Source: Siphonodentalium dalli
Lineage: Eukaryota; Mollusca; Scaphopoda; Gadilida; Siphonodentaliidae
Direction: 5' to 3'
Assembly (NCBI GenBank): GCA_032622095.1
Contig: CP136066.1
Span: 170,634,664 to 170,698,663 of the forward strand
DNA: 64,000 bases
Under the pieces are notes generated by a model that saw only the letters and a list, made by a program, of their open reading frames with translations, had not been told where the DNA came from and ran no database searches. Made by a program: the position numbers and the translations under genes. Positions 3,058 through 57,580 of this stretch are shown in pieces. Numbering within the stretch: position 1 is the stretch's first letter; every line of letters starts with the position of its first letter.

Positions 3058-6000
3058 GGTTACACTGATGTAAATGTTTTCCATAGGACTCAGTGCAAAA
3101 TTTTCTTTAAATCTGAAAAATTGACATTTTGGGAAACTTTTTACAAAAAAAAATCATGTCTGTCTAGCAGGGAATTCGCCTTTAAATCTTATGTTTTCGT
3201 AACTAGTGTCAGAACCGCATAAAAAAATACAGTCATATTTTAGACCACACCAACAAATTCAAACTTCACTACAAAGGGTTAATTCCTGTGCCAATGGTTA
3301 TTTTACCTATGGGAAATCATAGGGAAGAGGTGTGATGATTTTTTTATGTGAAAAGCACACAAGGCTATTGACCAATCAGGGCCCAGTGTCTATTTTATTC
3401 TCTCCTATATATTCCTCCCGCATCCGCTAGATGTCACTCGGAACCTTATTTACACCAGTGTAACCTAAAGCGATAGCCCGCTTTTTCGCGGAATAATTGT
3501 AACTCCCTACATTTCTTCAGAATTGCCCATCAATGGAAAAAATGTGTTCAAAAACAATATCACTTCTGTGGTTCTTTATTTATCACACACAATTTAACCC
3601 CACCCTCTTTAACAAATTATTCATCAAAAAAGCACAATTTTCCACCACCAGTCATGTTCAGGCCCCATTTTCACTCAGTTTTAGGGGTCTGGTGTTGCAA
3701 ACTTGGATCAGCTATGGAAGACTGTTCAATATTCTTTCCATGAGAGAACTTCTGGTGATGTGAGGTCATTGAGTCCAGATCTGATCAGCTGAGCATCAAG
3801 CGCATGACTTTATCAGCACATTGAAGAATAAAATATGACATTTTCAGGTCTGCAAGGGTGATCCAAGATAACTGGATGTGGGTGTATATTGAATTAGTTG
3901 AATAAAGATATGCTCTCTTTGAATTGCTGAAGCATTTTCTTAAATGTGTCCAAGTTTTAGTGCTATTAACCTTCAAATGACCATACCCACCAGTGGAAAT
4001 GACACACTTTTATGATATATATCTGTATATCACTGGCTATAAAATCCAAAATACTTGTTAAATTAGGTTCTTATAACAATTGATATATGTGTCTTTGACA
4101 TGCCCATGTTATGGGTCATTTGCATTATCATGTGACTATTACCACCTTGAAAAATTTTGAAAATACCTTGAAAAATTGGCATTTTTTATGAAAAATCTTA
4201 CTATTTTTTTGGCTGATGTAAGTGAAAGAAGACATCAGCAGCAAGAATAGCCACATCAAGCATGAGATATTCATTGGACTGAAAGACCAGGCTCTGTAAA
4301 ATGCATTAAAATGCTTTAAAGTGACTCCCAGGAATCAAAAATGATAAAAAGCTATTTTTTCCCTTTAGGTTACACTGATGTAAATGTTTTCCATAGGACT
4401 CAGTGCTAACGTTTTAGCGTATAGTGTTGGCAATATAAATGTTGGGTCCAAAATTTTCTTTAAATCTGAAAAATTGACATTTTGGGAAACTTTTTACAAA
4501 AAAAAATCATGTCTGTCTAGCAGGGAATTCGCATTTAAATCTTATGTTTTCGTAACTAGTGTCAGAACCGCATAAAAAAATACAGTCATATTTTAGACCA
4601 CACCAACAAATTCAAACTTCACTACAAAGGGTTAATTCCTGTGCCAATGGTTATTTTACCTATGGGAAATCATAGGGAAGAGGTGTGATGATTTTTTTAT
4701 GTGAAAAGCACACAAGGCTATTGACCAATCAGGGCCCAGTGTCTATTTTATTCTCTCCTATATATTCCTCCCTCATCCGCTAGATGTCACTCGGAACCTT
4801 ATTTACACCAGTGTAACCTAAAGCGATAGCCCGCTTTTTCGCGGAATAATTGTAACTCCCTACATTTCTTCAGAATTGCCCATCAATGGAAAAAATGTGT
4901 TCAAAAACAATATCACTTCTGTGGTTCTTTATTTATCACACACAATTTAACCCCACCCTCTTTAACAAATTATTCATCAAAAAAGCACAATTTTCCACCA
5001 CCAGTCATGTTCAGGCCCCATTTTCACTCAGTTTTAGGGGTCTGGTGTTGCAAACTTGGATCAGCTATGGAAGACTGTTCAATATTCTTTCCATGAGAGA
5101 ACTTCTGGTGATGTGAGGTCATTGAGTCCAGATCTGATCAGCTGAGCATCAAGCGCATGACTTTATCAGCACATTGAAGAATAAAATATGACATTTTCAG
5201 GTCTGCAAGGGTGATCCAAGATAACTGGATGTGGGTGTATATTGAATTAGTTGAATAAAGATATGCTCTCTTTGAATTGCTGAAGCATTTTCTTAAATGT
5301 GTCCAAGTTTTAGTGCTATTAACCTTCAAATGACCATACCCACCAGTGGAAATGACACACTTTTATGATATATATCTGTATATCACTGGCTATAAAATCC
5401 AAAATACTTGTTAAATTAGGTTCTTATAACAATTGATATATGTGTCTTTGACATGCCCATGTTATGGGTCATTTGCATTATCGTGTGACTATTACCACCT
5501 TGAAACGTTTTGAAAATACCTTGAAAAATTGGCATTTTTTATGAAAAATCTTACTATTTTTTTGGCTGATGTAAGTGAAAGAAGACATCAGCAGCAAGAA
5601 TAGCCACATCAAGCATGAGATATTCATTGGACTGAAAGACCAGGCTCTGTAAAATGCATTAAAATGCTTTAAAGTGACTCCCAGGAATCAAAAATGATAA
5701 AAAGCTATTTTTTCCCTTTAGGTTACACTGATGTAAATGTTTTCCATAGGACTCAGTGCTAACGTTTTAGCGTATAGTGTTGGCAATATAAATGTTGGGT
5801 CCAAAATTTTCTTTAAATCTGAAAAATTGACATTTTGGGAAACTTTTTACAAAAAAAAATCATGTCTGTCTAGCAGGGAATTCGCCTTTAAATCTTATGT
5901 TTTCGTAACTAGTGTCAGAACCGCATAAAAAAATACAGTCATATTTTAGACCACACCAACAAATTCAAACTTCACTACAAAGGGTTAATTCCTGTGCCAA

Positions 6001-6176
6001 TGGTTATTTTACCTATGGGAAATCATAGGGAAGAGGTGTGATGATTTTTTTATGTGAAAAGCACACAAGGCTATTGACCAATCAGGGCCCAGTGTCTATT
6101 TTATTCTCTCCTATATATTCCTCCCGCATCCGCTAGATGTCACTCGGAACCTTATTTACACCAGTGTAACCTAAAG
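3058..6176. mobile_element. composite A-B-A-B-A block, 1353-bp period
   Basis: Sequence from about 4363 to 5715 is repeated with an exact offset of 1353 bp. The order is A (3058-3470, with a ~43-bp deletion and lacking the first CTTTAG), B (3471-4362), A (4363-4823), B (4824-5715), A (5716-6176). A begins CTTTAGGTTACACTGATGTA and ends TTTACACCAGTGTAACCTAAAG, so it has inverted ends of about 22 bp. The block interrupts repeat C exactly after GATAATG; C resumes with AACCCTCCC at 6177. Copies are nearly identical, implying recent amplification. Neither A nor B encodes a recognisable protein; the duplicated short ORFs (3533/4886, 3785/5138, 4384/5737) have no domain. Confidence 0.85.
4363..4823. 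mobile_element. A element (461 bp, inverted ends), middle full copy
   Basis: The inverted ends CTTTAGGTTACACTG and CAGTGTAACCTAAAG are clear, and the interior has no ORF of note. It behaves like a small non-autonomous DNA element, yet it also sits as a direct repeat on both sides of B, as a terminal repeat would. The class is unresolved. The other full copy is 5716-6176; 3058-3470 is a slightly deleted copy. Confidence 0.65.
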
Positions 6177-6955
6177 AACCCTCCCAATACTTTAGAATAT
6201 AGAATTAACCTTAAAATAACAAAAACCTTCGGAATACAGAACCTTCGGAATAACGAACCTTCTGATTGGTGAACCTTCGGAATAGCGAACATTCAGAGAA
6301 ATTTCGGAATAGTGGACATTCTGGATAGTGAACCTTCGGAATAGAGACATGCTCCCAATATTCATATTATATGCCCAGAGTTCAAAGGTATGGGCCCATA
6401 AAATCCTAAATTTGGCCCTTAAAATATTGAACTCCAAATTGGAGCCCACACAGAACATCACTTAAGTCAACTGTACCTGTGTCATGTCCCAATGCGGGAG
6501 GGTCCACAATATACCACAACATTCATATTATATGCCAAGAATTCAAAAGTATGGGCCCACGTAATGACATTAAATCTCAAGAAAACCCGCGAAAACAAAA
6601 TCACATTTAATGTTCTAAGTTAAGTTATTTCCTCCTGTATCTGTATCGGTATGCGCGCAGGATCAGTTCGGATGTGAGCGCACACTCCGTAAAAAGAATC
6701 TTTGTGATAATGAACCCTCTCAAATTAGTCTCAATACTTTAGAATATAGAATTAACCTAAAAATAACAAAAACCTTCGGAATAGAGAACCTTCGGAATAG
6801 CGGACCTTCGGGATAGCGAACCTTCATAATAGAAACATGCCCCCACAAGTACACCGGTGACGTAAACACATGTGCTAATCTTTGTTGTGCTATCGTGACT
6901 ATATCTGTACGATTTATACTCAGTACGAAATAACCATAATAATACAGTCGCCCAG
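6177..6955. repeat. repeat C, copy 2
   Basis: A near-identical copy of 2260-3045 that resumes immediately after the A-B-A-B-A block. It carries the same CCTTCGGAATAG iterations and the same AATACAGTCGC end, after which the two copies diverge (CAAGAATC in copy 1, CCAGTGGATT here). Confidence 0.85.
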
Positions 6956-9952: not shown

Positions 9953-10053
9953 ACTGAATTGGAGAATCGATTCAGTATAGAAAACGGTTAATTAGTATCG
10001 TATAATCTTATATGGTAATTACTTAATTGATTTACTATCGTATGTTCTTTCAG

Positions 10054-10532
10054 GTATAACGTTAATGTTGGAAATAGACAACCGCCTTGATGACTTGACT
10101 CCTCTACAAAAGAGCAACCTCATATTCTATGTCGCCGGCATCGCATACATCAACGGTATCGTGAATCCCATCATATATGCATTCAAAATACGAGTCGTCA
10201 AGATCAGATTCTACAAAATATTCTGCTGCAAGGATATAATCATATCAGCTAACGGGTCACTGGCGAAGAACGGCAGTTATAACCCATCTATGAGTTCAAG
10301 GGCGACTTCAGAAATGAGAAGTTCGTCTTCTGACAGTCAGTCTGGAATAAACGTTAGTACAATTTCAGCATCAATAGACACAGTGTTCACAGAAGACCGC
10401 GAAGAGAAAACAACTATTATGAGTTCAAGGACTTTAGATATGGCAATTCCTCATTCTCACAGTCAGCTTGAAATACATTTTGATAACATTTCACCGTCGC
10501 CAGACAAAGTTTCTACACAAGTAGGATTTTAG
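10054..10532 (+). pseudogene. GPCR copy 1: orphan TM7/C-tail exon
   Basis: Homologous to exon 2 of the GPCR at 19.6-21.6 kb. A polypyrimidine-AG acceptor (TTCTTTCAG, ending 10053) precedes the exon, and the phase matches copy 2: one base comes from the previous exon. The frame encodes extracellular loop 3, TM7 with the NPxxY-type motif VNPIIYAFKIR, a basic helix 8 ending FYKIFCCKD, and about 2.5 serine-rich tail repeats, stopping after QVGF. About 95 bp around TM7 are almost identical to copy 2, while the tail has diverged. No exon 1 with TM1-TM6 is visible in the upstream 10 kb. It is either a partial duplicate or uses a first exon beyond the window. The conserved acceptor and TM7 argue against simple long-term decay. 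Confidence 0.7.
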
Positions 10533-10904
10533 AAATGGAAATTTCGCGTTCTGATAGGCTGTCTGCGAAAGCATGTACCATTGCACTACGACAGACATAG
10601 TTTTAAAAAGAAAGCAGTGAGAAACCAGCTACGGGTTCAAGGACGACTTCAGAATTGATAAGTTCGCGTTCAGAGAGTCAGTCTGAAATAAATTGGATTC
10701 TATTTCACCATCGTCGGACACAGTTGTCACAGAAACCAATGGAGAGAAAACATCTATGAGTTCAGAAATGGGAATTCTGTATTCTGACAGTCAGCCTGTG
10801 AATAACTTTGATAAGATTTCACCGACGCCAGACATAGTGTTCACAGACATAAGCCAGTGAAATGAAAACATCTATCAGTTCAAGGACTTCAGAAATGAGA
10901 ATTC
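10533..10904 (+). pseudogene. decayed GPCR tail repeats, copy 1
   Basis: After the stop at 10532 the DNA still carries tail-repeat blocks: GAAATGG.AATTTCGCGTTCTGA, ATGAGTTCA, TTTCACC..CGTCGGACACAGT and GTTCACAGA. They are spread over shifted frames with stops. These are coding repeats of the ancestral longer tail that are no longer in frame. Confidence 0.7.
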
Positions 10905-11722
10905 CGCATTCTGACTATCAGCCTGTCCGCATTCTGACTATCAGCCTGTCCGCATTCTGACTATCAGCCTGAACTAAATTCCGCATTCTGACTATCAGCC
11001 TGAACTAAATTCCGCATTCTGACTATCAGCCTGAACTAAATTCCGCATTCCGACTATCAGCCTGAACTAAATTCCGCATTCTGACTATCAGCCTGAACTA
11101 AATTCCGCATTCTGACTATCAGCCTGAACTAAATTCCGCATTCCGACTATCAGCCTGAACTAAATTCCGCATTCTGACTATCAGCCTGAACTAAATTCCG
11201 CATTCTGACTATCAGCCTGTACTAAATTCCGCATTCTGACTATCAGCCTGAACTCAATTCCGCATTCTGACTATCAGCCTGAACTAAATTCTGCATTCTG
11301 ACTATCAGCCTGAACTAAATTCCGCATTCTGACTATCAGTCTGTCCGCATTCTGACTATCAGCCTGTCCGCATTCTGACTATCAGCCTGAACTAAATTCC
11401 GTATTCTGACTATCAGCCTGAACTAAATTCCGCATTCCGACTATCAGCCTGAACTAAATTCCGCATTCTGACTATCAGCCTGAACTAAATTCCGCATTCT
11501 GACTATCAGCCTGAACTAAATTCCGCATTCTGACTATCAGCCTGTACTAAATTCCGCATTCTGACTATCAGCCTGAACTCAATTCCGCATTCTGACTATC
11601 AGCCTGAACTAAATTCCGCATTCTGACTATCAGCCTGAACTAAATTCCGCATTCTGACTATCAGTCTGTCCGCATTCTGACTATCAGCCTGTCCGCATTC
11701 TGACTATCAGCCTGAACTAAAT
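10905..11722. repeat. 31-bp minisatellite grown from a GPCR tail repeat
   Basis: About 27 units of ATTCCGCATTCTGACTATCAG + CCTGAACTAA (31 bp), with a shorter 23-bp form lacking AACTAAAT. The monomer matches the tail-repeat codons that in copy 2 read GGAATTCCGCGTTATAACAG TCAGCCTGGAATTAA. Variant units recur with a 325-bp spacing: CCTGTACTAA at 11220 and 11545, GAACTCAATT about 325 bp apart, and CAGTCTGTCC at 11340 and 11665. A second-order duplication of about ten monomers therefore occurred. The unit length is not a multiple of three and contains TGA/TAA, so the array is not coding. Confidence 0.9.
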
Positions 11723-11990
11723 TTTGATACTATTTCACCATCGTCAGACACAGTGTTCACGCGAGCCATGCAGTGAAATGAAAACATCTATTAAATCTAT
11801 GCCTTAATTCAGAAATGGGAATTTCGCGATGACAATCAGCCTGAAATCAATTTTGATAACATTTCTCCGTCGGCAGACATTGTTTTTTTTTGGTCAGAAT
11901 GCAGTGAAGTTACACATGAAGTTTAAATAGTAAAGCAATCAGTGAATAGTATACAGCTAATACCACCGCCTCGTATATACGCGACACTGG
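11723..11990 (+). pseudogene. 3' end of GPCR copy 1 tail, decayed
   Basis: This sequence resumes tail-repeat homology after the minisatellite (TTTTGATACTATTTCACCATCG, GACAATCAGCCTGAAATCAA). It ends with GTGAAGTTACACATGAAGTTTAAATAGTAAAGCAATC, which corresponds to the last coding bases of copy 2 near 21930-21970. Frameshifts and stops prevent translation. Confidence 0.7.
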
Positions 11991-15895: not shown

Positions 15896-16087
15896 AAAAG
15901 GCTAATGAGGTATGCATCTGACAACTGAATCATTGTTATTCACTTTCCGGTTACATTGGGGAGAAAGTTGTGTTTTTAGAGAATGGAACTGTTAGATCAA
16001 ACAACATAACAATGCCACTCCTACTATTCCGTAAAGTTCAAGTAATGCCTGCAACGGATTTGATCGGATTTCGGTGGCATAGATTAA

Positions 16088-16478
16088 CCCTTTACCCAAC
16101 AGAAGGGCCCTGTGCCAATGCATTCTCTTATATATGCGAGTCGACCATAGGTCGCCTCGCATATATAAGAGAATGCATTGGCTTAACACATTAAAAATTA
16201 TAAAATTGTTAAAGAATGTAAGAAAAATGGTAAAAAGTGTTAAAACAAGATTTTTTTTAGGCCAATGCATTCTCTTATGTATGCGAGGCGACCTATGCTT
16301 GACTCGCATATATAAGAGAATGCATTGGCACAGGGCATAACTATAACCATCACAATGTGGTCAATGAGCCGGTTCCAATGATATCCATATTTGTATGGTT
16401 TTATTGAGACAGACCCAAGATATTTTAGGCTGTTGAAGCTTTATTTGGCCGGTTTTGGCCGGTTTGTTGGGTAAAGGG
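16088..16478 (+). mobile_element. TTAA-flanked double-hairpin MITE, copy 1
   Basis: A 391-bp element bracketed by TTAA at 16084-16087 and 16479-16482. Its ends are CCCTTTACCCAACA and TGTTGGGTAAAGGG. CCC...GGG ends with TTAA duplication are typical of the piggyBac superfamily; no transposase is present. The interior has two ~70-bp hairpins (about 16110-16186 and 16258-16331) in inverted order, separated by an AT-rich spacer. After them come TATTTTAGGCTGTTGAAGC and GGCCGGTTTTGGCCGG. The second hairpin carries substitutions (TATGTATG, CTATGCTTGAC). ORFs in this element translate hairpin DNA and are not genes. Confidence 0.85.
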
Positions 16479-16482
16479 TTAA

Positions 16483-17539: not shown

Positions 17540-17870
17540 ACACCCTGAATGTTCAGTTGGCTAGGTGTCCTATGTTCTGCGTCAATATATATACAGCAAT
17601 GTTCTGTAAACTAAATCAGACTGCGGGTGCAAATGGTGATGTTGGTTTGTGCGGCAATTCACCCGGCTATCGAAATGAAAGCCAGAAATTCGTGGTCGAA
17701 CGAAATGCAGCGGACGATGGTTAAGTTGGAAGTGAAGATACTGCAGCAGGAGAAGGTGATGGTGTTCTGGCAGTTGTGGACCAAACTGACCACCGTGAGA
17801 TATATGCCGAAGACCAATGGAGCTTTCCACAGAGGCCACACCCACAGCGGTAGTACCGCCCACTGGTAAA
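17540..17870 (+). pseudogene. paralogue of the region 3' of GPCR copy 2
   Basis: Aligns with 22003-22280: TGTTCTGCGTCA..TATA, CAGCAATGTTCTGTAAA, GATGTTGGTTTGTGCGGCAA, TTCACCCGGCTATCG, GAAACTCGTGGTCGAA-like sequence, and GTTGTGGACCAAACTGAC against GTTGTATACCAATCTGAC. The conserved frame reads DVGLCGNS..YR and VVE, then hits TAA after DDG where copy 2 has TTT; the frame continues open beyond that stop to about 17852. The shared codon pattern suggests this was once coding, either as a separate downstream exon or as a small gene. It is interrupted here. Confidence 0.5.
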
Positions 17871-19520: not shown

Positions 19521-19629
19521 ATGTAAAACAAAACACGAAAAGTATAAATATGTATAGGGGTCATGCAGTGTTCAAAATGTGTTTCTGACAACAATTCATT
19601 TAAGGTATTTTTACAAGCGGATTCATGAA

Positions 19630-21575
19630 ATGGACCGTAATGCTTCTCAACACGTGTTATTCTGGACCTTGAATGGCTATGGACCCACAGCGACGGTACT
19701 TTTCATCGGCGCAATCTCATCCCTGATTGCACTTACGATTATATTCCTCAACTCAATCGTTCTTGACACACTCCGGACGAATAGACACGTGCTCCAGACA
19801 GCCGATATATTTATAGCTAGCATCGCATTGGCCGATCTCATTCATGGAGTAACATTGTTGTATCAAGTGACATATAGCATCGTTAACTTCCAAGATTTAA
19901 CGGAATGTAGGTTCCGGTACGGACTTATCCACACCACTGGAATAAATTCAGTCCTTAACCTCGTTTCATTGACCTTTGAACGCTACGTTAAGATCACACT
20001 GCCGTTCAAATACAACAACATTTTCCATAAGACATCAAACCTATGCCTGACCGCCGGAATATGGATCCTGTCTGGAGTTATTGGTCAGCTCCCGACGATG
20101 GGATGGAACGTGGATCCACCGAATGACGTCATATGGCCTTGCACATATCTAGGTGTCCATAGCAACGCGTATCTGACGCTGGTTGTCGTCGCGTTCCTGT
20201 TTACATCCTTCATCATGATCGTCGTTTATCTTCATATTTTCAAGGTCGTGTGGTCACACTCACGAGCAATGAAGACACAGCGTCACGTAGGCCGCAGTTC
20301 TAATTTCGACAGAAACACGTGGAGATTAACTAAAACAATCTGTTTCATAGCCGGGGTTTATTTCCTTACTTGGATTCCAACAGGTAAGGGGTGTCAGGTC
20401 CAGGAACCTATACGTCACTAATGTAATATCTCTTCAGACGTTCGGGTGGCCGCTATTTTGGAACTCATGCAGTGGATGAGGTCGATATTTCTTGCACTAG
20501 TTATTGTACGAGTGAAAGGTATTATAGGAGGTGCCAAGTGAATTCTTTTATATTAATGTTTTGACTCGTTTCACTCGAACAAACAAATGATTTATACAAT
20601 AACAACTACGAATTATAGAAGTTTTAAATCTAGAAATTCAGGTTAACGTCATTTGCTTCAAACTAATTGTACACATCTTATTTATATTGTTATAATATAG
20701 TCACAAAAAAGACCTGTAATCCTATTAACATGTATCGTACAATGAAACTAACTCGCCAATCACCCAGATATGCCCCATCGATTTAACCCACGTCGATCTT
20801 ATATTTTCCATTAACATCCTTATCTCCAAATAATTCTTCGTTGAACTTCAATAAAGTAATTTCGTTATATCGAAATAAGATATCGTTATAACGAAATAAT
20901 ATTTAGATATATCGAAATAAGATATCGTTATAACGATATCAGATTTCACTTGTTACACTTGTGTTATTTTTTTGTTTTGTCTGTCTTCTGATCATTTTTT
21001 CTGGCCAACCTTCAAATGAATGATAGGCTATTCCAAAGTATTATTGTATGACTGAATGGGAGAATCTGTTTAGTATAGAACGGATTAATTACTTCATTAC
21101 AGGAATAGCGTTGATGTTTGAAATAGATGGACGTCTTGAAAACATGACACCTCTACAAAGGGGCAACATCATATTCTATGTCTCCGGCATCGGCTACATC
21201 AACGGTATCGTGAATCCCATCATATATGCATTCAAAATACGAGTCGTCAAGATCAGATTCTATAAAATATTCTGCTGCAAGGATATAATCATAGCAGTTA
21301 ACGGATCGGCGATGAAGAACGGCAGTAATAGACCATCTGTGAGTTCAGTGACGACTTCAGAAATGAGCATTTCGCGTTCTAACAGCCAGTCTGGAATCAA
21401 TTGCAGTGCTAGTTCACCACCGTCAGACATATTGTTTACAGAAGCCAACGACGAGAAAACATCAATGAGTTCTAGGACGACTTCCGAAATGGGAATTCCG
21501 CGTTATAACAGTCAGCCTGGAATTAAATTTGATAACATTTCACCGTCGCCCGACAGTTTTTACAGAAAACAGTAA
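19630..21575 (+). CDS. rhodopsin-class G protein-coupled receptor, orphan
   Basis: Two exons, 19630-20383 and 21103-21575, joined by a phase-1 intron (CAG|GTAAGG ... TTACAG|GAATAG), give 408 residues. The ATG at 19630 has G at -3 and G at +4. The N-terminus begins MDRNAS (glycosylation site). TM1 carries LNSIVLDTL, TM2 ALAD, TM3 a cysteine 24 residues before ERY (DRY variant), TM4 a Trp, ECL2 a GWN and a partner Cys, TM5 VVYLHIF, TM6 FLTWIPTG, and TM7 VNPIIYAFKIR. Helix 8 ends CCKD, a likely palmitoylation site. The tail holds ~41-residue Ser/Thr repeats (SSRTTSEMGI..SQPGI..D.ISPS.D) before a frameshift-induced stop. Overall layout resembles the amine/adenosine-type class A group; the ligand is unknown. 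It is predicted to sit in the plasma membrane and couple to G proteins. Confidence 0.9.
20384..21102 (+). other. GPCR intron with palindromic TATCGTTATAACGATA repeats
   Basis: A 719-bp intron. At about 20855-20942 it contains alternating TTTCGTTATATCGAAAT, AAGATATCGTTATAACGA and similar words, each itself palindromic, so the stretch can fold in several registers. The 3' part (from ~21014) matches the sequence before exon 2 of copy 1, minus the MITE inserted there. Confidence 0.75.
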
Positions 21576-22000
21576 TTATAAGCCACCTGTGAGTTCAGAT
21601 ATGAACAGTTCGCGTTCAGAGAGTCAGCCTGGAATACATTGTGATACTATTTCACCATCGGACACAGTGTTCACAAAATCCAACGAAGAGAAAACATCTA
21701 TGAGTTCAAGGAGGACTTCCGAAATGGGAATGTCGCGTTCTGAGTTTCAACCTGCGACAAATTTCGATACTACATGTATTTCACCATGCATCGACATAGT
21801 TGTCACAGAGGGCAATGGAGAGAAGTCATCTATGAGATATACAATGTTTAGGACTTTCTCATTCTGGCTGTCAGCGTGGAATACATTATGATAGTATTGC
21901 CCCCTCGTCAGACATAGCTTTCGCAGAAGCCAGGGAAGTTACAAATGAAGTTCAAACAGTAAAGCAATCTTCAGAATCTACTGCTAATAATAGTTCATAG
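21529..22000 (+). pseudogene. out-of-frame remainder of the GPCR tail
   Basis: Two bases appear to be missing near 21555 (consensus GACACAGTTTTCACAGA, here GACAGTTTTTACAGA). The downstream tail repeats continue in another frame to 21891 with clear protein-level similarity (VFTENSN, SRSESQPGIHCDTISPSDTVFTK, EEKTSMSS, RRTSEMGMSRSE). A second shift near 21865 returns to a frame ending at 22000 (SPSSD-like, then AFAEAREVTNEVQTVKQ...). The repeat starts lie at about 21341, 21467, 21591, 21702 and 21833. The ancestral receptor therefore had a tail of about five repeats. The truncation may be recent, allelic or an assembly error. Confidence 0.75.
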
Positions 22001-22066
22001 GGTGGTGTCTCTGGTGTTCCGCGTCAGTCTATAGACAGCGATGTTCTGTAAAATAAAGGATACCTT

Positions 22067-22246
22067 ATGTATAATACGGATGATGTTGGTTTGTGCGGCA
22101 ATTCACGCGTCTATCGTGATGGGGGCGAGAAACTCGTGGTCGAACCACCTGCAACTGAAACGGATGATGGTTTTGTTGGTAGTGACACTACTGCATCAGA
22201 AGTAGGTGCAATTGACAATTGTGCTGACAGTTGTATACCAATCTGA
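22067..22246 (+). CDS. 59-residue ORF downstream of the GPCR, conserved in a paralogue
   Basis: The ATG-initiated frame starts MYNTDDVGLCGNS and ends ADSCIPI. It is acidic, with four Cys in total and no signal peptide. The segment 17627-17720 preserves the same frame (GDVGLCGNSPGYRNESQK then VVE), which is the only reason to list it. It may be an extra GPCR 3' exon, a small gene or a translated 3' UTR. Function unknown. Confidence 0.3.
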   Translation: MYNTDDVGLCGNSRVYRDGGEKLVVEPPATETDDGFVGSDTTASEVGAIDNCADSCIPI

Positions 22247-23921
22247 CTGCCATGAGTTTTATGCCGAAATTTAGGCATGGCTCTCTTAGAGCGATTATTC
22301 AGCCATCTGTGATTGATCACTTGGTTGATATAATTTCCGGAGAATGAACTTCCGGGGATTAACATGACTCAAATTGTGATTATAATTAATCACTTATGTG
22401 CACGCGATATGGACAAACAAGCGATTTTGAGGGCCATTGAAGAGGAAACCTGGAATATGAGTATTCGCACAGACTTACCACTGATCACGAAGTGTGAGCG
22501 GGCATCACTAGCTAACACAGCGTACGATCTTAGAAAAAGACAGAAAAACAGAAAACGTGCATTAGACTAAATGGAACTAAAATGATCCTGAAGCCTGGTA
22601 AAAATTCTACAAACCATCCGCTAGTTCTTAGTGTGTTAGAGACTAGCACCAAGGAACTATATATCACAAGAATTCTGAGAAATATTGGAAATTTACAATA
22701 AATTTTGATCTTAATTTTTCATCTTTATAGATGTGTTTCTAGAGTATAGTAACAGTAATAGTAATAGTGTCCACCTTGTATAGAAAAACCTGACATACAT
22801 GTATTCACAAATGTATTATTGGATGAGGAATTGCTTATCACACAGCTGGTTGCTTATTTTGTCTTATTTTATTCATGGCAACTTGGCTCATGCCACTTGC
22901 TGCAGCTTAGTTCTGGGTAGCTTTGTATTAGAAAAAATGCAACGTGATTTCTATTCATTACATGAGGGTTTGGAATATGTTCAAATTGTTAGATTTTTAC
23001 AATGACTTTGTGATCACTTGGTGTGTCCACATCTGACCTAGTAATTATATACTATAACTCACACGACATCTAAAATTTCCTGATCTCTACTATGAGTTAC
23101 TGTACTGTTCAATTTCTGTGTTGGGCCACAACAATAATATGGTTGGTTTACGAACATTTGGTTTGAAAAAAAAAGTATTTGCAAATAAAAAAATAAACTT
23201 ATGCATCACTACCACAACATTTGGCAAATATCAGAATTGTCCATGAATTTCACAAAACTTTTGAATACGATAAGCTTTAATCAGATTATAAAAATAAGTT
23301 GAAGTGTTCCTGCCTATGAAACTGTATAGATGGTAAAAAAGAGACTCAGCCATCAAATAATTTATTCACCACTATTACCAAATGCTTCATATTTTAATCA
23401 GCTTGAACATAAACCATGTAAACAAATATTTGTTTTACAGTATTGGAGGAAAAGTTGTAAGAGAGGTTTGCAGGCTAGGCTGTTAAGTTGTTGATGCCTT
23501 GCACAGAAATATTGTATAGAATTTTGTATTACCTGTTCCTGAAATTTATTGAACTTATTAATATTTATATATAAAAAAGTAGTATCTTGGTGCTTGGGTA
23601 TCATGGTCTTGTTTCGCGCTATGCAGCCCGTTAGTACCCTTTCAACTTTCAATATTTCGCGAAAGGGTACAATATAGGGGCCGGCTTACATACCACCGTG
23701 GTCTCAAGCAATTGTACCAAACAGCATGGATAAGCATTCATGTAATTTCTGAGGCCGACTATCTACCTATCAAGCATCTCGTAATCGTATAATTACTCTT
23801 ATTTATTTTCCAAAAACTTCTAGTGGATATCTAAACACTTTGGGCACTGAATAACTTGTATCTTGAATTGTTCAAATAGACAAAACTATGGTGAAGTAGT
23901 CCCATAACATGGTCGTGGCAC
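22247..23921. other. intergenic, no convincing gene
   Basis: A 68-codon ATG frame at 22364-22570, with a basic C-terminus (DLRKRQKNRKRALD), is the only item of note and has no recognisable domain. The phrase TCCGGGGATTAACATGACTCAA near 22351 resembles 29232-29250, a possible further duplicate scrap. Otherwise nothing seen. Confidence 0.4.
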
Positions 23922-25599: not shown

Positions 25600-27580
25600 C
25601 GCCATCGAGAGTCACTTATTTTTAGTCGAGTTTTTTTCTCCAAAACTCGACTTATAGTTTGATGGGGGACGGCGGGCGGCGGGCGGGCGGGCTGGCGGGC
25701 GGCCTGTTTTGCTTATAACTGAACCGTTTATTGACGGATTACGAAAAAATTTGGTGTGTGAGTACATATCCATGCACGTAAGCTGCAGACAACAAATCGG
25801 GTTCGTCCGCACATTTATTACAGAGTTATGGCCTTTTGCCATTTTTCACTGATTTTAGGCTCGTTAGCGCAACAACTTCAACAAACGTTATCTGATTCGA
25901 TTGAAATTTGGGATATATGTGTCTCCCAAGAATATCTCGGACGAGTTCGAAAACTGGCCTGGTCCGATAAAATTTGATAGGTTATGGCCCTTAATTAGTC
26001 ATTTTTCACGAATTTTCAGCTCGTTAGCGCGATAACTTCAACAAACGTTATCCGATTTGATTGAAATTTGGTATATAGGTGTCTCCCAAGATTATCTCGG
26101 ACGAGTTCGAAAACCGGCCTGGTCCGATAAAATTTGATAGAGTTATGGCCCTTAATTAGTCATTTTTCACGAATTTTCAGCTCGTTAGCGCGATAACTTC
26201 AACAAACGTTATCCAATTTGATTGAAATTTGGTATATAGGTGTTTCCCAAGAATATATCCGACGAATCGAAAACCGGCCTGGTCCGATAAAATTTGATAG
26301 AGTTATGGCCCTTAATTAGTCATTTTTCACGAATTTTCAGCTCGTTAGCGCGATAACTACAGCAAACGTTATCCGATTTGATTGAAATTTGGTATATAGG
26401 TGTCTCCCAAGAATATCTCGGTCGAGTTCGAAAACCGGCCAGGTCCGATAAAATTTGATAGAGTTATGGCCCTTAATTAGTCATTTTTTCAAAAAAATTC
26501 AGCTCGTTAGCGCGAGAATTTAACAAACATCATCCTATGATATATATATATAGGTGTCTCCCAAGAATACCTCGGACGAGTTAGAAAACCGGCCCGGTCC
26601 GATAACATTTGATAGAGTTATGGTCCTTAAGTAGTCATTTTGTACGAATTTTGAGCTCGCTAGCGCGATAACTTCAACAAACGTCATCCGATTCAACTAA
26701 AATTTGGTATATAAGTGTCTTCCAATAATATCCTGGACGAGTTTGAAAACCAATAAAATTTTATAGAGTTATGGCCCTTAATTAGTCATTTTTCACGAAT
26801 TTTCAGCTCGTTAGCGCGATAACTTCAACAAACGTTATCCAATTTGATTGAAATTTGGTATATAGGTGTCTCCCCAGAATATCTCGGTCGAGTTCGAAAA
26901 CCGGCCAGGTCCGATACAATTTGATAGAGTTATGGCCCTTAATTAGTAATTTTTCACGAATTTTCAGCTCGTTAGCGCGATAACTTCAACAAACGTTATC
27001 CGATTTGATTGAAATTTGGTATATAGGTGTCTCCCAAGAATATATCGGTCGAGTTCGAAAACCGGCCAGGTCCGATACAATTTGATAGAGTTATGGCCCT
27101 TAATTAGTCATTTTTTCACAAATTTTCAGCTCGTTAGCGCGAGAATTTAACAAACATCATCCTATGATATATATATATAGGTGTTTCCCAAGAATACCTC
27201 GGACGAGTTAGAAAACCGGCCCGGTCCGATAAGATTTGATAGAGTTATGGTCCTTAAGTAGTCATTTTGTACGAATGTTGAGCTCGTTAGCGCGATAACT
27301 TTAACAAACGTCATCCGATTCAACTAAAATTTGGTATATAAGTGTCTTCCAATAATATCCTGGACGAGTTTGAAAACCAATAAAATTTGATAGAGTTATG
27401 GCCCTTAATTAGTCATTTTTCGTGAATTTTTAGCTCGTTAGTGCGATAACTTCAACAAACGTCCTCCGATTTGTTTAAAATTTGGAATAGACGTACTTGC
27501 CAAGAATATTTCGGACGAGTTCGAAAACCAGCCTGGCCCGATAAAATTTGATAGAGTTATGGCCCTTAATTAATTTTTCG
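25600..27580. repeat. satellite-like array, ~157-161-bp unit, about eleven copies
   Basis: Each unit reads CAGCTCGTTAGCGCGATAAC, TTCAACAAACGTTATCCGAT, TTGATTGAAATTTGGTATAT, AGGTGTCTCCCAAGAATAT, CTCGG.CGAGTTCGAAAACC, GGCC.GGTCCGATA, AATTTGATAGAGTTATGGCC and CTTAATTAGTCATTTTTCAC. The first unit is divergent and preceded by a GGCGGGCGGGCGGGC tract near 25672-25705. A variant with GCGAGAATTTAACAAACATC and a TATATATATA run occurs at 26511 and 27138, exactly 627 bp apart, giving a four-monomer higher-order repeat. A related word, GAGTTATGGCCCTTTTGCC, occurs at 50778. No coding frame. Confidence 0.9.
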
Positions 27581-30545: not shown

Positions 30546-30740
30546 GACCTTCGGAATAGCGGACCTTGGGAATAACGGACTGTACTCGAATCACACGACG
30601 AAGGCATGCTTGCACTGTTCCGTTCTACATCCGTTTTCCAATTTCTAGATAAAGATGTTCTTATTCTAGCACCTAACGTAACTATGTTGAATCAATAGAT
30701 ACCGTGCTGAAATCTTTAATTATATGCATGCTGTAGTTAA

Positions 30741-31132
30741 CCCTTTACCCAACAGAAGGGCCCTGTGCCAATGCATTCTCTTATATATGCGAGTCGACCA
30801 TAGGTCGCCTCGCATATATAAGAGAATGCATTGGCTTAACACATTACAAATTATAAAATTGTTAAAGAATGTAAGAAAAAATGGTAAAAAGTGTTAAAAA
30901 AAGATGTTTTTTAGGCCAATGCATTCTCTTATATATGCGAGGCGACCTATGGTCGACTCGCATATATAAGAGAATGCATTGGCACAGGGCATAACTGTAA
31001 CTATCACAATGTGGTCAAGGAGCCGGTTCCAATGATATCCATATTTGTATGGTTCTATTGAGACAGACCCAAGATATTTTAGGCTGTTGAAGCTTTATTT
31101 GGCCGGTTTTGGCCGGTTTGTTGGGTAAAGGG
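30741..31132 (+). mobile_element. TTAA-flanked double-hairpin MITE, copy 2
   Basis: Flanked by TTAA at 30737-30740 and 31133-31136, with the same CCCTTTACCCAACA/TGTTGGGTAAAGGG ends and the same orientation as copy 1. Both hairpins have intact arms: GCCAATGCATTCTCTTATAT ... GCGAGTCGACC-ATA-GGTCGCCTCGC and the reverse order. The terminal repeats and hairpins are better preserved than in copy 1. Confidence 0.88.
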
Positions 31133-31572
31133 TTAATCGAAAATCATGGTACGCAACTGAAGACTTCTAGTCTCCATGTACACATATCATACATATTAAT
31201 TCTCAAGGTTTCCGGTGACTCAAGGGATGAGACTCAATCTGTTCAATATAAGTTTCATAAGAATTTCAAATTATATTGTAATGCAAATAAAACCTCACAA
31301 CTTGAATGGTCGTTCTAAGTGAAGCGATTTGTTGACTAAAGTGATAGGAAACTGAAATATACTCATACAACCAAAATCGACATTTCATGCATGCCATCTC
31401 TCTTAAAGTGTATACTTCCCATACGTAACATACTCTTTCAGATCGATATTATGATCAGAAGACATATTTAGTCACAGTGAACCATAACATACAGTCTGTC
31501 TGTCTATCTGTTTCTCAAATTAAAGAACATTGACAATTGCGATATTGTCGGTCTCAATTGTGACACAGTGAT

Positions 31573-33350: not shown

Positions 33351-33426
33351 ATGACTATGTTGTAAATAGTGTATATATGTTCACAGTCATCTCTAATTTC
33401 ATGTTAATTCACGATTGAGTTATTAA

Positions 33427-33816
33427 CCCTTTACCCAACAAAACGGCCAAAACCGGCCAAATAAAGCTTCAACAGCCTAAAATATCTTCGGTCTGTCTCA
33501 ATAGAACCATACAAATATGGATATCATTGGAAACGGCTCCTTGACCACATTGTGATAGTTACAGTTATGCCCTGTGCCAATGCATTCTCTTATATATGCG
33601 AGTCGACCATAGGTCGCCTCGCATATATAAGAGAATGCATTGGCCTAAAAAAAATCTTTTTTTAACACTTTTTACCATTTTTTCTTACATTCTTTAACAA
33701 TTTTATAATTTTTAATGTGTTAAGCCAATGCATTCTCTTATATATGCGAGGCGACCTATGGTCGACTCGAATATAAGAGAATGCATTGGCACAGGGCCGT
33801 TCTGTTGGGTAAAGGA
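33427..33816 (-). mobile_element. TTAA-flanked double-hairpin MITE, copy 3
   Basis: Same element in reverse orientation, with TTAA at 33423-33426 and 33817-33820. The GGCCGGTTTTGGCC segment now comes first and the hairpins second. The last base of the right terminal repeat is changed (AAAGGA for AAAGGG), and one hairpin arm lacks CAT (GACTCGAATATAAGAG). Otherwise complete. Confidence 0.87.
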
Positions 33817-33820
33817 TTAA

Positions 33821-34289: not shown

Positions 34290-34890
34290 AACGATTAGCC
34301 CCGGAGCTTTGATGAAGAAGAACGTCAGTTGTCAACCATATATGACTTCAAGAACTTCTTCATAAATGAGAAGTTTGCGTTTTGTCAGACTTGAATAAAA
34401 TGCAATGTCATTTCACCATTTCGTCGGACACATATTTCACAGAAGCCAACGAAGAATAATAATAGATCTACGAGTTCAAGGACGTCAGATGTGGCGTGGA
34501 AATTCCGCGTTCTGACAGGCAGCCTGGAATCAATTTAATAGCATGTCAATAAACCATCCATGAGTTCAATAATGTGTTTAGAAATGGGGATTTAGCGTTC
34601 TGACATTCAACTAGCGATAGGTTTTGATATCATTTCACACCATTGTAAAACATTTTTCACAGCAAATAGTGAAGATAAAACATCTGTTAGTTCAAGGAGA
34701 ACTTCACAAATGTCAACTATGCGTTCTGACAGTCAGTCCGTGATAAATTTTGATGGTATTACACCAGCGCTAGACAAAGGTTTCGCAGAAGCCAGTGAAG
34801 TTACAAATGAAATTCAAACAGAAAAGCAATTAGTGATATCGTATGACAGTGAGGCAGATTCTACTGCCCATATATACAGAGCGATATGAG
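34290..34890 (+). pseudogene. GPCR copy 3: decayed C-terminal tail
   Basis: Recognisable blocks in the same order as copies 1 and 2: AAGAACGTCAGTTGTCAACC, ATGACTTCAAGAACTTCTTC, TTTCACCATTTCGTCGGACA, TTCACAGAAGCCAACGAAGA, CGCGTTCTGACAGGCAGCCT, TTCAAGGAGAACTTCACAAATG, CGTTCTGACAGTCAGTCCGT, and finally GAAGCCAGTGAAGTTACAAA TGAAATTCAAACAGAAAAGC. Frames are broken repeatedly. The end block equals the ancestral C-terminus (SEVTNE.QTEKQ). Confidence 0.75.
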
Positions 34891-35117
34891 TGTGTTAATG
34901 GGTTGGTCGATATGGCACCACACTATCGCGGAAGGATATAAAGATATGCGCAGCCTCGAGTTCTATCCGTCCGCGATGTCACAAGTGCAGCATGGACAAC
35001 AATATTGACATCCGTGTCGTTCTGTGTTGATTACACGCCATCCGTCCTAGAATCTGTGAATTAAATAAAAACAGATTTACAATGCAGGGCTTGTTTTGTT
35101 ATGTGCGATGATCTTAA

Positions 35118-35510
35118 CCCTTTAACCAACAGAACGGCCCTGTGCCAATGCATTCTCTTATATATGCGAGTCGACCATAGGTCGCCTCGCATATATAAGA
35201 GAATGCATTGGCTTAACACATTAAAAATTATAAAATTGTTAAAGAATGTAAGAAAAAATGGTAAAAAGTGTTAAAAAAAAGATTTTTTTTAGGCCAATGC
35301 ATTCTCTTATATATGCGAGGCGACCTATGGTCGACTCGCATATATAAGAGAATGCATTGGCACAGGGCATAACTGTAACTATCACAATGTGGTCAAGGAG
35401 CCGGTTCCAATGATATCCATATTTGTATGGTTCTATTGAGACAGACCGAAGATATTTTAGGCTGTTGAAGCTTTATTTGGCCGGTTTTGGCCGGTTTGTT
35501 GGGTAAAGGG
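35118..35510 (+). mobile_element. TTAA-flanked double-hairpin MITE, copy 4
   Basis: The left TTAA is at 35114-35117. The right end TGTTGGGTAAAGGG is followed by GCAA, so the right target copy has been lost or mutated. The left end has CCCTTTAACCAACA (one change). Both hairpins are intact. It sits in the interval between the GPCR copy 3 tail and the paralogous 35.8-kb segment, so it inserted after the duplication or copy 1 never had it. Confidence 0.85.
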
Positions 35511-55490: not shown

Positions 55491-56230
55491 ATTCGATCGA
55501 TGAAAGGAAGAAATGCGACAAGATATGAGCGCCACTCATATGGGAGTCTATACGTTCACTACATGTACATGCTAGCAAATTGGGAATGTTAACTTTTGAT
55601 CTCTCTCTCGCATCAGCTTAGTGCTGAATATACATCCAAATTCCATCCTGGGTAACGCGTTTCAACCTGTTACAATGCATTCAAGTTCACACTGAGATAA
55701 TGTCGATGCCGGGACGTGGTTCTGTATGTCAATGCAACCAGCTTCCAAGGTGAACTGTCAATGCCATACTAGTACATGTCTGTGCTAATGACCTACGATT
55801 CAGCACATTTACGCAGATTCGAAATCCGATATCGAATCGGGTGTCTGATATCGATATCGAATCTCGAATCGAATCGATAACGGTGTGGCATGGCATATAG
55901 GTCACAACATTCAGTAGCGAGCTTATTCATATTTTGAACTAAAATACAATAATTACGTGGATATAATTGTACAGAATTTAATTATAACTATGTAATTATT
56001 TAAATTGATTCTGAGTATATGATTGTGCGCAAACTAACTATTCGGTTTGCGGTTAATCGTTATGTTAATCATCTCAAGTACCATTGTTCGCACAATATGA
56101 CCCTTATGTTAGTCAGTTCGCGGCCATACAACAATGGGATCGGGCCATATCGTGACAAAATCAATTAGCAGTTGGTGAACAACGTGACCATGTTCATACT
56201 AACCCGATAACACCTCGATAACACAATTAA
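55491..56230. other. intergenic, ATCGA-rich patch
   Basis: Positions 55817-55882 are made of overlapping GATATCGAATC words. A loosely inverted counterpart (GATTCAGTATCGACACCGAA) occurs at 56870, on the other side of the next MITE. No gene. Confidence 0.4.
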
Positions 56231-56623
56231 CCCTTTACCCAACAAACCGGCCAAAACCGGCCAAATAAAGCTTCAACAGCCTAAAATATCTTCGGTCTGT
56301 CTCAATAAAACCATACAAATATGGATATCATTGGAACCGGCTCCTTGACCACATTGTGATGGTTACAGTTATACCCTGTGCCAATGCATTCTCTTATATA
56401 TGCGAGTCGACCATAGGTCGCCTCGCATATATAAGAGAATGCATTGGCCTAAAAATAAGTCTTTTTTTAACACTTTTAACCATTTTTTCTTACATTCTTT
56501 AACAATTTTATAAATTTTAATGTGTTAAGCCAATGCATTCTCTTATATATGCGAGGCGACCTATGGTCGACTCGCATATATAAGAGAATGCATTGGCACA
56601 GGGCCCTTCTGTTGGGTAAAGGG
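56231..56623 (-). mobile_element. TTAA-flanked double-hairpin MITE, copy 5
   Basis: Reverse orientation. TTAA at 56227-56230 and TTAT at 56624-56627 (one change). The CCCTTTACCCAACA and TGTTGGGTAAAGGG ends are intact, and both hairpins are complete. Confidence 0.87.
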
Positions 56624-56627
56624 TTAT

Positions 56628-57035
56628 AATAATAAATTACCAATTAGTCATACAACTGTTAGGCCACTTGGTGTAGCTGGTCTCTTATGTGAGCTTTCTG
56701 TCTTTACCTAAGTGACCCATCCTTTACACATTTAACATCGGATGTGTTCCGCAGATTATCCCACATGTTTATCATTCCGACATGTAATTAACCACCACCT
56801 AGCGCAAAATCCGCAACAATAGTTCAATGTTGGAGACATGTTGGATAATTCAAATTATTTGAGGGGTTTCGATTCAGTATCGACACCGAATCAGACCCGT
56901 GACTTTTAGCTTTGTGAAGACATGAAGGGTGTAGCATAAGTGGGAGCCGTCTTTAGCGCCATTCATCGTTTTTATAGAATCAAATCGAATCTCCAAGATT
57001 CGCATGGCGCTTTTGTTTTCCTAAATAAATTGTGT
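56628..57035. other. spacer between MITE copies 5 and 6
   Basis: Contains the GATTC-rich patch at 56868-56895 and no gene. Confidence 0.4.
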
Positions 57036-57039
57036 TTAA

Positions 57040-57580
57040 CCCTTTACCCAACAAACCGGCCAAAACCGGCCAAATAAAGCTTCAACAGCCTAAAATATCT
57101 TCGGTCTGTCTCCATAGAACCATACAAATATGGATATCATTGGAATCGGCCCATTGACCAAATTGTGATGGTTATAGTTATGCCCTGTGCCAATGCATTC
57201 TCTTATATATGCGAGTCGACCATAGGTCGCCTCGCATATATAAGAGAATGCATTGGCCTAAAAAAACACTTTTTTAAACACTTTTTACCATTTTTTCTTA
57301 CATTCTTTAACAATTTTATAATTTTTAATGTGTTAAGCCAATGCATTCTCTTATATATGCGAGGCGACCATAGGTCGCCTCGCATATATAAGAGAATGCA
57401 TTGGCCTAAAAAAAAAAAAAAAAATAACACTTTTTAACATTTTTTCTTACATTCTTTAACAATTTTATAATTTTTAATGTGTTAAGCCAATGCATTCTCT
57501 TATATATGCGAGGCGACCTATGGTCGACTCGCATATATAAGAGAATACATTGGCACAGGGCCGTTCTGTTGGGTAAAGGG
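57040..57580 (-). mobile_element. TTAA-flanked MITE with three hairpins, copy 6
   Basis: TTAA at 57036-57039 and 57581-57584 flank a 541-bp element with an extra hairpin and an extra AT-rich spacer. The middle hairpin centre (about 57358-57384) reads GCGAGGCGACC-ATA-GGTCGCCTCGC, perfectly symmetric. The outer two hairpins keep the usual one-mismatch GAGTCGACC/GGTCGCCTC forms. This suggests unequal exchange within the hairpin. An A18-type run follows the middle hairpin. Confidence 0.88.

Follow-up and report, generated by a model that had tools for sequence, protein, structure and literature searches.

The receptor cluster

We analyzed a 64,000-nt stretch of the Siphonodentalium dalli genome (CP136066.1), hereafter the window, and positions called window positions are counted within it. 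The window sits on a 233-Mb contig of a 2.23-Gb genome and carries the second exon of one paralogue (copy 1), both exons of another (copy 2) and a stray tail fragment (Table 1). A third paralogue, copy 0, lies on the minus strand about 42-48 kb upstream of the window (C6:170587149-170592904). As predicted from its sequence, the host gene is a two-exon receptor of the rhodopsin type. Exon 1 of copy 2 scores 99.4 bits against Pfam family 7tm_1 (PF00001), for which the cut-off is 30.5 bits; exon 2 alone matches no Pfam family, and NPIIY is visible in its translation. The closest of 380 PDB sequences is GPR119 (1e-16), and LPA1, S1P1, M2, beta2 and A2a trail it by no more than a few orders of magnitude. 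Our search of the literature found neither this locus nor a receptor with a tail of the kind described here.

Table 1. Features of the receptor cluster and the array in the window
Feature	Window positions	Strand	Evidence
Copy 1 exon 2: TM7 (NPIIY), helix 8 region, tail units 1-2, TAG 10530-10532	10054..10532	+	ORF 9996-10532; acceptor TTTCAG
In-frame tail units of copy 1: unit 1 (10287-10412), unit 2 (10418-10520)	10287..10520	+	unit-model matches
Copy 1 tail units 3 (10518-10623), 4 (10629-10752) and 5 (10753-10869), post-stop, frame-shifted	10518..10869	+	unit-model matches
AATAAA, candidate polyadenylation signal between stop and array	10687..10692	+	pattern scan
Tail unit 6, left portion (positions 2-58 of model), entering array	10872..10925	+	unit-model match, E 1.2e-12
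Minisatellite, 28 units of 31 or 23 bp	10903..11722	+	Tandem Repeats Finder, unit parse
Second-order block 1, 418 bp, 14 units	10903..11320	+	unit parse
Second-order block 2, 325 bp, 11 units	11321..11645	+	unit parse, unit-order shuffles
Beginning of block 3, a pair of 23-bp units plus a 31-bp unit	11646..11722	+	unit parse
Tail unit 6, right portion (positions 35-122 of model), exiting array	11691..11777	+	unit-model match, E 6.4e-19
Copy 1 tail unit 7	11806..11911	+	unit-model match, E 4.7e-21
Remnant of non-repeat C-terminal segment, probably copy 1's	17573..17811	+	74.0% to 22015-22268; matches copy 0 C-terminus
Copy 2 exon 1 (TM1-TM6), donor GTAAGG	19630..20383	+	ORF 19558-20421; Pfam 7tm_1 E 3.1e-28
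Copy 2 exon 2: TM7, tail units 1-2, stop 21573-21575	21103..21575	+	stop follows 2-base gap vs other units
Copy 2 tail, 5 units; frame shifts after unit 2 and again near 21840	21337..21941	+	unit-model matches
Stray 4-unit tail fragment	34341..34803	+	unit-model matches

The three copies share a tail built from a repeat whose consensus is 42 residues, or 126 bp. In copy 0, exon 1 lies in a 300-aa frame and exon 2 in a 598-codon open frame that holds seven in-frame tail units and a non-repeat C-terminus. The number of units differs between paralogues (seven, seven and five, plus the four-unit fragment), which is in line with an earlier sequence-only reading of this DNA that had described the tail repeat as unstable. 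When the genome was searched with the tail and C-terminus of copy 0, all nine matches fell in C6:170587152-170669444. Nine paralogous second exons elsewhere on C6 (184.8-192.3 Mb) lack a tail of this type and end soon after helix 8. A degenerate receptor exon 2 at C2:154645012-154645455 is 51% identical, contains four stops and includes at least part of one tail unit. Finally, L009:8524-10000 and L010:1752-3228 agree at 99.865% over at least 1,477 bp that include part of copy 0 exon 1, the repeat lying 3.2 kb on; either part of the copy was duplicated very recently or the assembly has duplicated it.

Because no first exon of copy 1 lies within the window, the copy could have been an orphan exon or fragment; this idea was discarded once an open exon 1, 87% identical to that of copy 2, was found at C6:170619363-170620214. 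The two exons are separated by a putative intron of 24.5 kb, and a search of the whole intervening DNA up to window 10054 found no other second exon at E 1e-3. Over 162 aa, exon 2 of copy 1 shares 64% identity with exon 2 of copy 2, and the copy 1 tail units past the stop fall in differing frames (tblastn). The C-terminal remnant that is probably copy 1's sits 5.6 kb from the copy 1 tail, whereas its copy 2 counterpart (22015-22268) adjoins the tail. The putative intron also holds a direct duplication of about 1.35 kb (about 3477-4830 and 4830-6180), whose stop-to-stop translations, 1,353 bp apart, are identical.

The tail of copy 2 went out of frame in its second unit, with no array present. 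Past that point, tail and C-terminus can still be read at 21588-21891 and 22052-22246 in two other frames, which makes the frame loss in this copy look recent.

Structure of the array

In the one assembled genome on which this description rests, the copy 1 array consists of 28 head-to-tail units, 22 of 31 bp and six of 23 bp, for a total of 820 bp (Tandem Repeats Finder and a unit-by-unit parse). Head-to-tail units within the range of roughly 10-100 bp make it a minisatellite. The 23-bp unit is the 31-bp unit minus the eight bases AACTAAAT; the first unit of the array is of this short form, and further 23-bp units are internal. Eight sequence types occur among the 28 units, with six single-base variants and the 8-bp deletion. 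The span of 10533-11990 under which the sequence-only reading described the array runs on from the stop codon, and the array forms its middle.

Self-identity of the array peaks at lags of 418 (0.891), 31 (0.849) and 325 bp (0.833), and a pair of 23-bp units opens every second-order block. The 325-bp block is composed of two 23-bp and nine 31-bp units. Consistent with this, the best lag in the order of units is 11, a value equalled or bettered in 391 of 20,000 shuffles of that order. The second-order period, claimed at 325 bp from the sequence alone, is thus supported, although not overwhelmingly, by the shuffles; the accompanying claim that a block was duplicated after the first expansion also stands, but the block has 11 units and not ten.

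The array and the reading frame

The frame of copy 1 ends with its TAG 370 bp upstream of the array, and many stops occur in all three forward frames through the array itself. No stop-to-stop frame of at least 60 aa runs over the array on either strand. A coding VNTR would have a unit that is a multiple of three and would lie inside a frame; here the units are 31 and 23 bp, they follow the stop codon and they contain stops throughout. Taken together, the stop, the stops in three frames and the absence of a frame of at least 60 aa place the array, as assembled, outside the predicted receptor protein. Besides the AATAAA between the stop and the array, a pattern scan for polyadenylation-type words found AATAAA at 10346, within the frame, and ATTAAA at 11790, past the array. 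Several tail units (window 10346 and 10687; L009 tail units 2 and 4) code Gly-Ile-Asn by GGAATAAAT, which contains AATAAA.

Origin from a tail unit

All 28 units share one founder, and the monomer aligns without gaps to positions 36-66 of the 126-bp tail repeat (full unit model). In a separate test, a doubled monomer was scored against a tail-unit model made from copies 0 and 2, with copy 1 left out. It scored 11.7 bits, whereas none of 2,000 dinucleotide shuffles scored as high; only nine of the 2,000 received any reported score, the highest being 1.7. The sequence-only reading had taken the monomer for a piece of a ~41-residue tail repeat and had named an alignment at chance level as grounds for rejecting that view; the shuffles and the 42-residue consensus uphold it.

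The two parts of tail unit 6 flank the array in register, and both flank matches run without a break at the array edge (full unit model). This indicates that the array, which lies within the sixth of seven tail units in copy 1, grew in place. No array like that of copy 1 was found among ten genome matches, in a search that skipped simple repeats and scored the best candidates. A supposed second array on C3 was dismissed, as the match there is an unrelated 15-bp repeat (judged by eye).

We consider the array to be, probably, a young non-coding minisatellite born in place within the sixth 126-bp tail unit of one paralogue. Its birth may have begun when 31 bp were duplicated in tandem between a pair of AATT words 31 bp apart in the founder. 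An 8-bp deletion would then have given the 23-bp unit, after which slippage or unequal exchange would have multiplied single units and, later, a block of 11. Since 31 is not a multiple of three, such a duplication could persist just where the frame did not matter. With the array reduced to one unit, AATT is the sole lag-31 run of at least four bases in the founder. When the second AATT is joined to the first, the product is exactly the observed junction of array units. As much homology is found at 2.0% of possible breakpoints at lags 20-60, and we regard this 4-base junction homology as weak evidence for the site of duplication. We found no support for the same word pair as a general hotspot of the tail: outside the founder, AATT recurs at lag 31 in 3 of 24 unit rows, and none of these three has a 31-bp duplication.

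Selection on the receptor core and tail

Rates were compared among copies 0, 1 and 2 by the Nei-Gojobori count, with four further paralogues left out of the exon 1 count. Omega in exon 1 is 0.21 for copies 0 and 1, 0.30 for copies 0 and 2, and 0.25 for copies 1 and 2; for the first 72 codons of exon 2 the corresponding values are 0.32, 0.32 and 0.52. In the in-frame tail of copies 1 and 2, omega is 1.02 over 85 codons. In copy 1, then, it looks as if the receptor core is constrained and the tail is not.

In copy 0 the frame of the tail appears to be kept, and the sequence of the tail evolves almost neutrally. Compared with one another, the copy 0 tail units have a pooled pS of 0.381 and a pN of 0.328. 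A neutral star simulation of the seven units, which is rough in that it starts from the consensus of those same units, gave a mean of 6.65 stops and remained stop-free in only 30 of 20,000 runs; the frame therefore appears to be maintained. We also considered the tail as a selected phosphorylation code and found no support for it: the Ser+Thr fraction in copy 0 is 0.306 against a neutral mean of 0.289 (sd 0.019, P 0.18); restricted to the 30 stop-free runs, the test gives 0.23.

We offer tentatively, as a possibility that we think rather doubtful, that this one cluster of receptors has gained a long tail of 42-residue tandem units whose frame is kept open and whose sequence is not, selection acting on the presence or length of the tail, and that paralogues in which this selection has lapsed fray by frameshift, by deletion or, as in copy 1, by the birth of a minisatellite. 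If this is true, the minisatellite is a by-product that marks where a length-selected coding repeat became neutral DNA. For receptor biologists, what may merit attention at this locus is the copy 0 tail, with its frame kept and its sequence nearly neutral.

The order of the tail units hints at an ABAB alternation. For six units of copy 0, with unit 7 left out, distances are smaller at lag 2 (0.222) than at lag 1 (0.308), and an equally good result comes from 72 of 720 orders, the lowest number that this test can reach with six units. In copy 1 there is almost no difference (0.290 at lag 2 and 0.305 at lag 1), and a tree of the tail units has low support. The alternation is suggestive only.

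Probable order of events and alternative explanations

With less weight, we infer that loss of the copy 1 frame preceded growth of the array: the copy 2 frame was lost in unit 2 with no array present, and in copy 1 near-identical array units sit in a tail with several independent indels and stops, which suggests that the array is the younger unless its units have been homogenised. By eye, however, the native frame of the founder unit is open, so that the frame may have been whole at the first duplication and the order may be the reverse. The array would then have broken the frame of a tail that was whole, with the stop at 10532 and the other frameshifts following later under relaxed selection. 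The 789 bp added to the unit are a multiple of three, although stops would still end translation within them. We hold this order of events to be unlikely, though deserving of some weight. That the repeat expanded out of frame, as the sequence-only reading had it, agrees with the 31- and 23-bp units and with the place of the array past the stop.

That reading went on to call the tail of a signalling receptor a length-variable substrate. On this view the array would be translated in some transcripts and give receptor tails of different length. The constrained core of copy 1 and the coding tail units of the intact paralogue would fit such a coding VNTR, but the unit lengths, the stops, the want of any long frame and the order of stop (10532), AATAAA (10687) and array (10903) speak against it, and we give it almost no credence. 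The array could also be a regulatory element under selection in a copy 1 3' UTR, such as a repeated mRNA binding site, and its place past the stop of a receptor with a constrained core would fit this; such a role is nonetheless very improbable, since AATAAA precedes the array, neither copy 0 nor copy 2 has an array that could be conserved, and nothing positive speaks in its favor. Dispersed and tandem repeats abound in the window, and a piece of a mobile element or satellite could have landed at the array site, but the match of the monomer to a tail unit, the in-register flanks from that same unit and the lack of dispersed copies among the ten genome matches make importation exceedingly unlikely. 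Assemblies often mis-size tandem repeats, and the number of units could be an artefact. For long reads, though, an array of 820 bp that carries internal variants is a short one, and its variants fall in blocks; we judge an error in the count to be very unlikely, and it would alter the number of units and not their origin.

Comparison with known systems

Squid rhodopsin carries pentapeptide repeats at its C-terminus and is, like copy 0 with its seven units of 42 residues, a rhodopsin-type receptor with a repeated C-terminal tail, although both unit and length differ. The passage of PMC13360283 that we consulted makes no statement on rhodopsin. A tandem repeat is also connected with a rhodopsin-type receptor gene in DRD4, where the 48-bp VNTR of exon 3 (PMC3164202) lies within the frame and codes for the third intracellular loop; the copy 1 array, by contrast, is outside the frame.

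The birth of a minisatellite as we propose it is a known kind of event, of which this locus is a good example. In the model of Haber and Louis (1998), as the passages on it in PMC4232551 and PMC3389668 describe it, a unique stretch between direct repeats of 5-10 bp is duplicated and then expands by slippage or unequal exchange. The present array resembles such minisatellites in that a stretch between short direct repeats would have been duplicated and expanded in these ways, but the direct repeat flanking the founder, AATT at lag 31, is 4 bp and falls below that range, and the seed is a unit of an older coding repeat. A 5-bp AATTT does occur at lag 31 in copy 0 unit 1 but is absent from the founder. 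Taylor and Breden (2000), as summarized in a passage of PMC3389668, attribute minisatellite birth to slipped-strand mispairing at non-contiguous repeats. Birth from short, separated repeats and a shortened end unit, here the 23-bp first unit, recall that model, yet 23-bp units are also internal to this array, so that the short end unit is not diagnostic.

What the locus adds is a clean single-locus case in which one unit of an older coding repeat gave birth to a minisatellite. A single cluster holds the founder and its two flanks, together with one paralogue whose coding tail is intact and another whose frame is broken although it has no array. It also indicates that, when a tandem repeat lies beside a receptor gene, the stop codon should be placed before a variable receptor tail is called.

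Other repeats in the window

A dispersed element of about 400 bp with internal inverted repeats occurs in both orientations at 95-97% identity (16084-16482, 30737-31136, 33423-33820, 35114-35510, 56227-56626 and 57032-57405). Tandem Repeats Finder reports a satellite-like array of about 11 units of 161 bp at 25822-27572, and short arrays of a 16-bp unit close to AACCTTCGGAATAGCG lie at 2307, 2859, 6224, 6771, 30096 and 30545.
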